This document shows positions 16,492 to 18,923 of a stretch of DNA of 64,000 bases, one piece after another (the stretch's first letter is position 1; every line of letters begins with the position of its first letter). Under the pieces are notes generated by a model that ran no database searches, was not told where the DNA came from, and saw only the letters and a program-made list of their open reading frames with translations. Position numbers and translations under genes: made by a program. Source of the DNA: Komagataeibacter sp. FNDCF1 (GTDB taxonomy: Bacteria > Pseudomonadota > Alphaproteobacteria > Acetobacterales > Acetobacteraceae); assembly GCF_021295335.1 (NCBI RefSeq), contig NZ_JAIWOT010000001.1, positions 623,001 through 687,000 of the forward strand. The letters run 5' to 3'.

Positions 16492-16567
16492 TGGTGGGCG
16501 CAACAGGGATTGAACCTGTGACCCCTACCATGTCAAGGTAGTGCTCTACCGCTGAGCTATGCGCCCA
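16492..16567 (-). tRNA. tRNA-Val (anticodon GAC)
   Basis: Read on the minus strand, the 76-nt sequence starts GGGCGCATAGCTCAGCGG and ends TGCGCCCACCA, giving a perfect 7-bp acceptor stem with an encoded CCA. The D arm (GCTCAGCGGTAGAGC), an anticodon stem CTACC/GGTAG around loop TTGACAT, and the T arm (ACAGGTTCAATCCCTGT) are all intact. Anticodon GAC reads GUC/GUU valine codons. It stands alone, between the GMC gene and the N-formylglutamate amidohydrolase gene. Confidence 0.97.
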
Positions 16568-16756
16568 CCAGCAGCATCGGTGAACAGGCTTTTACTCATC
16601 CCTTCAGGGGCATGCAACCCCCATTTTGAAAAAAATCACATTGACCAAAAAGCAGCCTGCTGTCCCTATGGCAGCCATGTGCCGTCCTGCTTTTTCACCA
16701 TGGTCCTGCCCGTTCCGCATGTGGCTGCCTGTCCGCCAGGGCATGGGGTGGACCGC

Positions 16757-17620
16757 ATGAGCGAATGCGCCATTCCTCCGTTCCATATCGTGGAGCCAGA
16801 CGGGGCCCAGGCACCGCTTATTGTCGCATCGGCACATTCGGGACGGAATTACACCGACGCGTTTCTACGCATGTCCCGGCTTGGCGCCCACGCCCTGCGC
16901 CGGAGCGAGGACTGTTATGTGGAGCAGTTGTTCGAAGGCGCCCCCCGGCAGGGAGCGACCCTGCTGCATGCAACCTTTCCCCGTGCCTATTGCGATGCCA
17001 ACCGCGAAGCATGGGAACTGGATCCCACCATGTTCCGTGATCCGCTGCCCGACTGGTGCAACACCACCAGTCACAAGGTGCGTGCCGGTTTTGGCACCAT
17101 CGCGCGGATTGTCTCGCGTGATGGGCCGATCTATCCCCGCGCGCTCCCCTTCAGTGAAGCCGAGGCCCGTATCCGTACCTGCTGGCAGCCCTATCATGAT
17201 GCGCTGGCGCACCTTGTACATGACAGGCTGGCGCATCATGGCCGCTGTATCGTGCTTGACGCCCATTCCATGCCCGTAGCACCGGGGCGGGGGAGGCAGT
17301 CTGATTTCGTGCTGGGTAATGCATGGGGCACGGCATGCACGCCGCAACTGACCGGTATCGTGGAACACACGTTGACCAGCCACGGTTATGCGGTGGCGCG
17401 CAACGTGCCGTTTGCAGGGGGGTATGTCACCCGTCATTATGGTCGGCCGCGCCGCGGCGTACAGGCGCTGCAGCTTGAAATCAGCCGTGCCCTGTACATG
17501 GACCAGACGACCCTGCAGCCGCATGCCGGCTTCACATCGCTCCAGACCGTGCTGATGGATGTCGTGACCAGCATTGTGCGGCATGGCGGGATGATGGCCA
17601 CGCAGCAGGCGGCGGAATGA
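16757..17620 (+). CDS. N-formylglutamate amidohydrolase family protein
   Basis: 287 residues from the ATG at 16757 (GGGGTGG upstream). The open frame extends back to 16559 through the tRNA gene, so the internal ATG is preferred. Near the N-terminus IVASAHSGRNYTDAFL matches the metal-binding start of FGase proteins. LDAHSMPV and the C-terminal YVTRHYGRPRRGVQALQLEISRALYMD are family hallmarks. FGases hydrolyse N-formylglutamate to formate and glutamate at the end of one histidine-degradation route. No hut genes are visible here, so the role could instead be in another formyl- or amide-hydrolysis step. Confidence 0.82.
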   Translation: MSECAIPPFHIVEPDGAQAPLIVASAHSGRNYTDAFLRMSRLGAHALRRSEDCYVEQLFEGAPRQGATLLHATFPRAYCDANREAWELDPTMFRDPLPDWCNTTSHKVRAGFGTIARIVSRDGPIYPRALPFSEAEARIRTCWQPYHDALAHLVHDRLAHHGRCIVLDAHSMPVAPGRGRQSDFVLGNAWGTACTPQLTGIVEHTLTSHGYAVARNVPFAGGYVTRHYGRPRRGVQALQLEISRALYMDQTTLQPHAGFTSLQTVLMDVVTSIVRHGGMMATQQAAE

Positions 17621-17659
17621 ACGGTGCGGGACCGGCCGGGGCGCGGTCCCGCTGGCTGG

Positions 17660-18019
17660 TCATGCCGTTTTGGGGGGCTCGCCCGCCGGGGTCTGGGTAT
17701 TGACGGCTTCCGGCAGCAGGTGGGCCAGAACCGGCAGGATGGTTGCCGCGGGCAGGCCGGTCTTGTCCACCATGGCCTGCACCTGCTGGTTGCTCAGCAG
17801 GCTGCGCAGTTCATCGGTCGAGATGGGCAGGTTGTGGCCATCACCGATCCATGAGCGGACCTTGTCCCCAAGTCCGGCCTGATCCGCCTGGGTCATCAGG
17901 GAGGTGATGGTCGCCGGGGTCAGCAGTTGCGACAGGTAGGAATGCACCTGCTGCGACAGGCCTGTCGAATCAGCCAGATCGCTCAGCTTGCCCATGACGT
18001 CATTGAAGATACCGCTCAT
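17660..18019 (-). CDS. YidB-like (DUF937) protein
   Basis: 119 residues starting at 18019. It reads as a small soluble helical protein: MSGIFNDVMGKLSDL at the N-terminus, then LTPATITSLMTQADQAGLGDKVRSWIGDGHNLPISTDELRSLL, which closely follows the YidB/DUF937 pattern (AGLGDxVxSWxxxGxNxPIS). The function of this family is not well established. The C-terminus is proline-rich (TQTPAGEPPKTA). A second, more divergent member is at 50427-50819. The gene lies downstream of the small-RNA terminator on the same strand, so it must have its own promoter in 18020-18105. Confidence 0.82.
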   Translation of the reverse strand: MSGIFNDVMGKLSDLADSTGLSQQVHSYLSQLLTPATITSLMTQADQAGLGDKVRSWIGDGHNLPISTDELRSLLSNQQVQAMVDKTGLPAATILPVLAHLLPEAVNTQTPAGEPPKTA

Positions 18020-18105
18020 CGTGCTTTTTTCCCGTCTCTCGTTACAACTAATGAAGGACTATACTACATGATGTACAGTTATGTGAAATCTCTATAAAAA
18101 AAGGA

Positions 18106-18185
18106 TAAAAAAAAGCGGTGCATATGCACCGCTGAGTTTAGGGAGGAAACGTCCAAGAAGCAGGTGTACTAGACAGTCTGCTTCC
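18106..18185 (-). ncRNA. Candidate trans-acting small RNA with anti-Shine-Dalgarno loop
   Basis: On the minus strand the gene has all parts of a stand-alone small RNA. A promoter-like TTGACA (18214-18219) stands 18 bases from CATAAG (18190-18195). A 9-bp hairpin pairs AGGAAGCAG (18186-18178) with CTGCTTCTT (18163-18155). A single-stranded linker carries TTTCCTCCCTAAA, with CCTCCC at 18141-18146. A perfect terminator hairpin and U-run close it at 18107-18133. Exposed CCUCC is complementary to ribosome-binding sites, and alphaproteobacterial sRNAs with such loops are known. Predicted length is about 80 nt. There is no usable reading frame. The start point and targets are inferred; no family name can be given without a search. 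Confidence 0.62.
18107..18133 (-). terminator. Intrinsic terminator of the candidate small RNA
   Basis: A perfect 20-base palindrome (AGCGGTGCAT with ATGCACCGCT, 18114-18133) is followed on the minus strand by seven further T (18113-18107). It would also stop read-through from the NUDIX gene into the YidB-like gene. Confidence 0.85.
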
Positions 18186-18189
18186 TACC

Positions 18190-18219
18190 CTTATGCTATT
18201 CCTCACGGGGTTGTGTCAA
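18190..18219 (-). promoter_or_regulatory. Promoter-like sequence for the candidate small RNA
   Basis: A consensus -35 box TTGACA (18219-18214) is followed after 18 bases by CATAAG (18195-18190), which matches four of six positions of the -10 consensus. It lies directly behind the stop codon of the NUDIX gene. The predicted start is near 18183-18185. Confidence 0.55.
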
Positions 18220-18236
18220 CAAGAAAAAGCGATGAT

Positions 18237-18923
18237 CTATTGTCGCGCATGGTACAGATGCCATGAGAGCAGGGTCTTGGCATCCGTCATGCCGATATGG
18301 GGCAAATGGTCAAGGTCGATCACATGCAGCCGGATGTGCTCATGTTCGCTGGCAAGGCCGGTCTGGCGGTTAGCGAGCCGACGGGCCAGGGGCTCATCAA
18401 TATGCAGTTCAGCGAAATAAAGGCCGATCGCCTCGTCACACCCGCCGGGTGAAAGCCAGACCTGCGTCAGCGCCACAAGATCACGCTCATGCACCCGCAG
18501 GTCGGCGCCAACTTCTTCCGACAGTTCGCGCAGGGCGGTGCTTTCGAACGCACCACCATCAAGCATGCCGGCCGGCAGCGCCAGCAGGTCAGGCCGGGCA
18601 ATGGGAACACGGGCCTCGCAGGTCAGTATGGTGCGGTCAGGGTAACCGGGGCATTTCAGCACCAGCAGGACGGATACGGAATCCCCGCGCAGTAGTGCGA
18701 GACCGGGTACGGGCTGGCCATCATGCAGGGCGTCGGCCTCGACCAGTATGAAGCCCATGCGGGTGGGGCCAAAGGCCACTGCATCGCGCACCATGACATG
18801 GCGCAGCGTGAAGCGGGCGCGCATGCCTTCATGCCAGCGGCGAAAATGGGGGGCGGCCAGCACGCGGGCATGCATGGCCGGGTCCATGCCGGGGGCAAAG
18901 GAAATATCACATGTCGGGTCCAT
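18237..18923 (-). CDS. NUDIX hydrolase, ADP-sugar pyrophosphatase type
   Basis: 228 residues from the ATG at 18923, preceded by CAGGGAGACCCC. The Nudix box region reads LPAGMLDGGAFESTALRELSEEVGADL at about residues 115-141. The REL-EE-G core is intact, but the segment before it is one residue shorter than the textbook box and lacks the first glutamate. Eukaryotic and bacterial ADP-sugar pyrophosphatases with a PAGMLD start are known, so this is probably an ADP-ribose or ADP-glucose hydrolase. It lies 26 bases after the glycosyltransferase frame on the same strand, suggesting a shared transcript and a link to nucleotide-sugar turnover. Confidence 0.8.
   Translation of the reverse strand: MDPTCDISFAPGMDPAMHARVLAAPHFRRWHEGMRARFTLRHVMVRDAVAFGPTRMGFILVEADALHDGQPVPGLALLRGDSVSVLLVLKCPGYPDRTILTCEARVPIARPDLLALPAGMLDGGAFESTALRELSEEVGADLRVHERDLVALTQVWLSPGGCDEAIGLYFAELHIDEPLARRLANRQTGLASEHEHIRLHVIDLDHLPHIGMTDAKTLLSWHLYHARQ

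Follow-up and report, generated by a model that had tools for sequence, protein, structure and literature searches.

Behind a NUDIX hydrolase gene, the minus strand of this stretch of Komagataeibacter DNA reads like a complete small transcription unit, which raises the question of whether it encodes a stand-alone small RNA (sRNA) and, if so, of which kind and with which targets. A sequence-only reading had described the unit as a promoter, a 5' hairpin, an unpaired linker carrying CCUCC and a terminator, and had recognised no described family in it. We refer to the whole stretch of 64,000 nt that was analysed as the window; PMC12559287, PMC2873474 and PMC7143759 are cited throughout from excerpts of their text. 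In the direction of transcription of the sRNA, the locus is laid out as follows.

18240 to 18923, minus strand: NUDIX hydrolase gene that precedes the sRNA and shares its orientation (domain match)
18214 to 18219, minus strand: -35 hexamer TTGACA, read from the sequence and kept in 19 of 19 genus genomes
18190 to 18195, minus strand: -10 hexamer CATAAG after an 18-nt spacer, CATAAN in 19 of 19 genus genomes
18104 to 18184, minus strand: apparent αR8/MmgR-type small RNA of about 78 to 81 nt (RF00519 match and fold; start inferred from the promoter)
18157 to 18184, minus strand: predicted 5' hairpin of 7 bp, arms 18184-18178 and 18163-18157
18140 to 18149, minus strand: αR8 10-mer TTTCCTCCCT, putative anti-Shine-Dalgarno seed (sequence, and the 10-mer of αR8 in the excerpted PMC12559287)
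18107 to 18133, minus strand: intrinsic terminator AGCGGTGC-ATAT-GCACCGCT (18133-18114) and T-run 18113-18107 (terminator scan)
18058 to 18087, minus strand: promoter-like site TTCACA-N18-TATAGT before yidB, past the sRNA terminator (promoter scan)
17663 to 18019, minus strand: YidB-like gene (PF20159) that follows the sRNA in the same orientation (domain match)
16733 to 17617, plus strand: N-formylglutamate amidohydrolase-type gene (FGase, PF05013), convergent with the sRNA (domain match, 238.5 bits)

Anatomy and family of the small RNA

Read in order from 18219 to 18104, the minus strand places a linker carrying UUUCCUCCCU between the 5' hairpin and the terminator. The promoter proposed from the sequence was borne out, and TTGACA-N18-CATAAN lies ahead of the sRNA in all 19 genus genomes; a consensus promoter scan does not list it because that scan accepts only T as the sixth base of the -10 element. 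The perfect terminator palindrome with its U-run was likewise found as described, with a stem of 8 bp, six of them G-C pairs, followed by the T-run, as expected of a Rho-independent terminator. It is the only terminator that the scan of positions 17600 to 18700 returned, and shuffles average 0.6, so that this lone call is by itself not beyond chance. For the RNA between 18184 and 18104, the predicted folding energy is -26.2 kcal/mol (z -4.91), a value equalled by none of 200 shuffles. Taken with the conservation described below, this is very probably a real sRNA gene, and the sequence-only reading was very probably right on its anatomy and on its likely anti-Shine-Dalgarno action.

The suggestion that the RNA belongs to no described family did not hold. 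A search of Rfam matched RF00519 (suhB, described as mmgR; αR8) to positions 18168 to 18100 with 47.1 bits, above the gathering score of 41 (E 1.5e-6 over the whole 64,000-nt window), and the unknown-family reading was rejected on this ground. Two other candidates were also discarded: SorY (RF02651), which reached 21.2 bits where its gathering score is 111, and an rpsL leader, which scored far under its gathering score. The αR8 family unites MmgR of Sinorhizobium meliloti with SisA-D of Caulobacter crescentus (PMC12559287), and the S. meliloti RNA SmelC689, which is MmgR, is given as an RF00519 match (PMC2873474, PMC7143759). According to the excerpts of PMC12559287, the family is marked by the 10-mer 5'-UUUCCUCCCU-3', which sits in an unpaired segment below a weak hairpin, by a Rho-independent terminator and, for most species, by an adjoining putative N-formylglutamate amidohydrolase gene.

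The window sRNA carries the 10-mer letter for letter at 18149-18140 on the minus strand, in a stretch that is predicted to be single-stranded and lies downstream of a hairpin, although this exposure does not exceed that of a shuffled-flank control. The linkage to an FGase gene, which is typical of αR8 without being obligatory, is present as well, with yidB in between; the FGase protein of the window scores below the NCBIfam cut-off for hutG. Thus, the RNA at 18104-18184 appears, from its sequence, to be a member of the already described αR8 family, which also supports the earlier view of an anti-Shine-Dalgarno sRNA of a kind known in Alphaproteobacteria: a stand-alone gene in the family of MmgR and SisA-D. 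On the far side of the locus, a tRNA gene (RF00005, 71 bits, 16495-16566 minus) adjoins the FGase gene.

Conservation and predicted fold

Within the genus, a single RF00519 copy above the cut-off was found in each of the 19 genomes, always between NUDIX and yidB. The 17 distinct genus sequences agree at every base between the start of the hairpin's 3' arm and the end of the T-run, apart from three positions in the terminator loop, and the bases just upstream of this invariant stretch vary. An exact 32-nt pattern from the sRNA recovered 14 named stretches, all from Komagataeibacter, in a search that may have left out records very near the window. The exact GGNCGTTTCCTCCCT is present in 49 of 49 loci (19 from the genus and 30 from the family), a count restricted to loci that the RF00519 covariance model had retrieved.

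Beyond the genus, RF00519 matched 123 of 150 sampled genomes of the family at E 0.001, with 120 over the cut-off; three of the 123 belong to Komagataeibacter. Among 14 control genomes, two matched at E 0.001 and one exceeded the cut-off. Our own covariance model, R1, built on canonical copies, matched 122 of the 150 genomes at E 0.01, with stricter filters applied to both counts. Since the two counts are nearly equal, genomes without a match look like real absences or cases of strong divergence. Such genomes number 27 of the 150 at E 0.001, and the 20 listed among them are 1.9 to 3.7 Mb in size and at least 93% complete, a pattern that suggests lineage-specific loss or divergence. In one family genome, αR8 occurs three times in tandem, at intervals of about 250 nt (locus L005, minus strand, 1258-1349, 1505-1596 and 1774-1865).

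The 5' hairpin had been read as 9 bp long. A hairpin is indeed present, and its conserved part comprises 7 bp (GRAGCAG/CUGCUUC); a 9-bp hairpin would need transcription to begin no later than 18186, and the two additional positions vary within the genus. Outside the genus, the hairpin changes in sequence, but its two arms change in a compensating way and still pair, as seen in 32 non-genus sequences. When the 5' arms were swapped among these 32, the energy averaged -12.2 kcal/mol and reached -13.4 in the best of 50 swaps, against -16.5 for the native combinations. Thus, the linker is invariant within the genus and hairpin pairing is kept beyond it, so that conservation is not confined to the terminator, which favours an RNA gene. 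Judged by the RF00519 alignment, the 4-bp GCCC/GGGC stem of Rfam would be at most weakly formed in the window sRNA, for which a longer hairpin, shifted upstream of the consensus stem, is predicted.

The linker had further been described as unpaired. The seed is mostly open in the predicted fold, with the 10-mer unpaired to 71% on average, but a weak 3-bp GGA/UCC helix is also predicted, and in 6 of the 19 genus sequences the 10-mer is about 55% unpaired. With nine upstream bases added, the 10-mer of the window sRNA falls to 39% unpaired, compared with 56% for shuffled flanks, and over 49 distinct sequences it is 75% unpaired, compared with 71% for shuffled flanks. Calling the seed "exposed" is therefore true of the predicted fold, yet this is no more than chance gives.

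The gene neighbourhood bears on whether the RNA is separate from the gene that follows it. Because the sRNA is followed by yidB in the same orientation in all 19 genus loci, the unit could also be a yidB leader ending in an attenuating terminator, with the gene about 85 nt further on, instead of an sRNA gene of its own. However, yidB has its own promoter-like site past the terminator, and folds of 81 to 83 nt offer no antiterminator partner. The association also dissolves outside the genus: among 30 family loci (one per genome, the best match, taken from the 30 highest-ranked non-genus genomes), tblastn at E 0.001 finds YidB in the flanks of none, whereas FGase is kept in 16 of the 30, within flanks of up to 1.5 kb and convergent in all 16. 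None of NUDIX, yidB and FGase occurs within the flanks of the other 14. We regard the attenuator as improbable and keep to the stand-alone sRNA gene. Within the genus, FGase lies within the flanks of 16 of the 19 loci, convergent in 12 and co-directional in four (L038, L040, L041 and L043), where a local rearrangement has occurred.

Probable mode of action and candidate targets

We consider it highly likely that this αR8 sRNA is made from its own promoter, pairs with Shine-Dalgarno sites and represses selected mRNAs, probably via Hfq. In such a scheme, transcription would start at the vegetative-type promoter and stop at the sRNA's own terminator, yielding an RNA of about 80 nt, whose linker would pair with the purine-rich Shine-Dalgarno sequences of selected mRNAs. 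Hfq would probably assist this pairing, and translation of the target mRNAs would be repressed, as modelled on SisA of Caulobacter. SisA of C. crescentus suggests, by analogy, that the likely targets are genes with which alternative carbon sources are taken up and used. It is through the 10-mer that SisA represses mRNAs; for one target, this was proven with compensatory mutants in E. coli producing Caulobacter Hfq, and SisA and its sponge CrfA affect each other much less when hfq is missing (excerpts of PMC12559287). The window genome encodes Hfq (profile match, 111.5 bits); the same seed, an hfq gene and the conserved promoter together make the SisA mechanism the most likely one for the window sRNA. 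PHB control, the role of MmgR, is unlikely here and was rejected as a function in the window genome, because PhaC_N (PF07167), the one domain of PHB genes that was searched for, has no match there at E <= 0.001; the Caulobacter control was positive.

To which mRNAs the seed could pair was surveyed genome-wide with full 10-mer complements. Known sRNA targets often use shorter or imperfect sites. Besides the complement of the sRNA itself, the window genome contains four full complements, compared with three for the reversed pattern, and one of the four clearly coincides with a ribosome-binding site, that of a DJ-1/PfpI gene. Its duplex energy of -18.9 falls short of the strongest of 200 shuffles (-20.4), and no other genus genome shares the site. 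Over the 19 genomes there are 113 sites, compared with 46 for the control pattern; 19 of the 113 are the complement of the sRNA itself, and all of the remaining 94 were examined. Of these, 44 lie near a start codon of an ORF of at least 60 aa, in ORF groups of at most five, and many of these ORFs look spurious. When the sites were grouped by surrounding DNA, the commonest occurred in 6 of the 19 genomes, four in four, three in three and six in two, and 51 stood alone. The commonest site (loci L173, L175, L219, L221, L228 and L229) precedes a doubtful ORF with a TTG start.

We do not claim a conserved regulon based on the full 10-mer complement: no site occurs in more than 6 of the 19 genomes, and iolD is the only named, properly Shine-Dalgarno-spaced gene among the sites found in at least four. 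On sequence grounds, this gene of inositol catabolism (TIGR04377, 806 bits) is the best target candidate. Beside its start lies AGGGAGGAAAC, an 11-nt perfect complement of the seed within the ribosome-binding site, in four of the four genus genomes that have the gene (L230-L233, with L230 named by TIGR04377; the complement lies about 16 nt before the match start). The iolD duplex comes to -21.6, and the strongest of 200 shuffles reaches -15.4; the gene is absent from the window's own genome. For nrdB of one relative, the duplex comes to -23.2 against a best shuffle of -20.1, and an invented consensus Shine-Dalgarno control gave -11.4 and did not beat its shuffles (best -20.0). The motif AGGGAGGA-N2-9-ATG occurs 21 times in the window genome and its reversal twice, an excess that is to be expected because Shine-Dalgarno sequences precede ATG. 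Ten of the 21 are copies of one HTH protein of 169 aa, nearly identical to each other and sharing the ribosome-binding site AGGGAGGATCGGGAATG (L068, L075, L077-L079, L081-L084 and L087; transposase-like by reading, with Pfam applied to L068 only).

A seed that is a near-generic anti-Shine-Dalgarno sequence, combined with few full-length complementary sites in the genome, might also suit an RNA that acts mainly as a sponge, or as a titrator of ribosomes or of Hfq, rather than as a regulator of selected mRNAs. Two points make this very improbable: conservation spans the whole linker, beyond CCUCC, and SisA of C. crescentus targets selected mRNAs through the same 10-mer, with reporter proof (excerpts of PMC12559287). 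A reading of the locus as a remnant of αR8 that has decayed or fallen silent is scarcely credible, given that all 19 genus genomes keep promoter, seed and terminator, separated by variable bases.

A putative diverged sibling and comparison with known systems

Besides the canonical copy, the window genome holds a second RF00519 match below the cut-off (G000:C1:459604-459681, minus strand, 31.3 bits, E 2.2e-4), which has the core ACGTCTCCCAATCCCTAAACT and a terminator of its own. Its core occurs in 18 of the 19 genus genomes, exactly in 16 and with one or two mismatches in two; it occurs in only 4 of the 150 family genomes, one of them, with two mismatches, outside the genus. Relative to the canonical core, the sibling has an extra CAA inside the seed, an insertion that breaks CCUCC. 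The two cores align with a score of 15.0, where the highest score among 2000 shuffles was 11.5; the remaining parts of the two RNAs align poorly. Judging by this sequence likeness, the sibling looks like a diverged αR8 paralogue. Counting against its descent from αR8, model R1 at E 0.01 recovers only the canonical copy in the window genome, and RF00519 at E 0.001 also matches one unrelated control, Thermus composti. It is conceivable, though doubtful, that αR8 in Komagataeibacter was freed from PHB and split into a canonical RNA and a sibling (core CGUCUCCCAAUCCCUAAACU, with CCUCC broken) that would serve different targets.

Overall, the sRNA locus is well conserved but ordinary, save for residing in a genome without a detected PHB synthase. 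Komagataeibacter is a cellulose-producing genus, and a known carbon-linked sRNA regulator is now placed in it. Literature searches gave, among the matches listed, no title about such an sRNA in Komagataeibacter and relatives and nothing relevant on expression in acetic acid bacteria. Because PHB synthase was not found in the genome, the locus offers a way to ask about the role of αR8 apart from PHB, and the diverged sibling provides a test case for seed evolution within an sRNA family.

Of the described RNAs, SorY resembles the window sRNA in its hairpin, C-rich linker and terminator; with a score far below gathering, the window sRNA is not a member of that family. MmgR (SmelC689) of S. meliloti shares its Rfam family and a terminator, and the 10-mer is reported for the family as a whole. 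At 77 nt (PMC7143759), MmgR is similar in size to the RNA of about 80 nt predicted here. In the excerpts of PMC7143759, the anti-Shine-Dalgarno motif of MmgR lies in the first loop, whereas the predicted fold of the window sRNA has it in the linker after the hairpin, and the 7-bp 5' hairpin is in another register than the consensus hairpin of RF00519. MmgR limits PHB accumulation (PMC7143759), whereas the window genome is without a PhaC_N match. C. crescentus has four siblings and the CrfA sponge, whereas the window genome has one canonical copy and one diverged sibling, and no CrfA-like sponge was identified in it. With SisA-D, as described in the excerpts of PMC12559287, the window sRNA shares the same 10-mer below a hairpin and a host that encodes Hfq, and the linkage to FGase is common to sisA of C. 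crescentus and the window sRNA.
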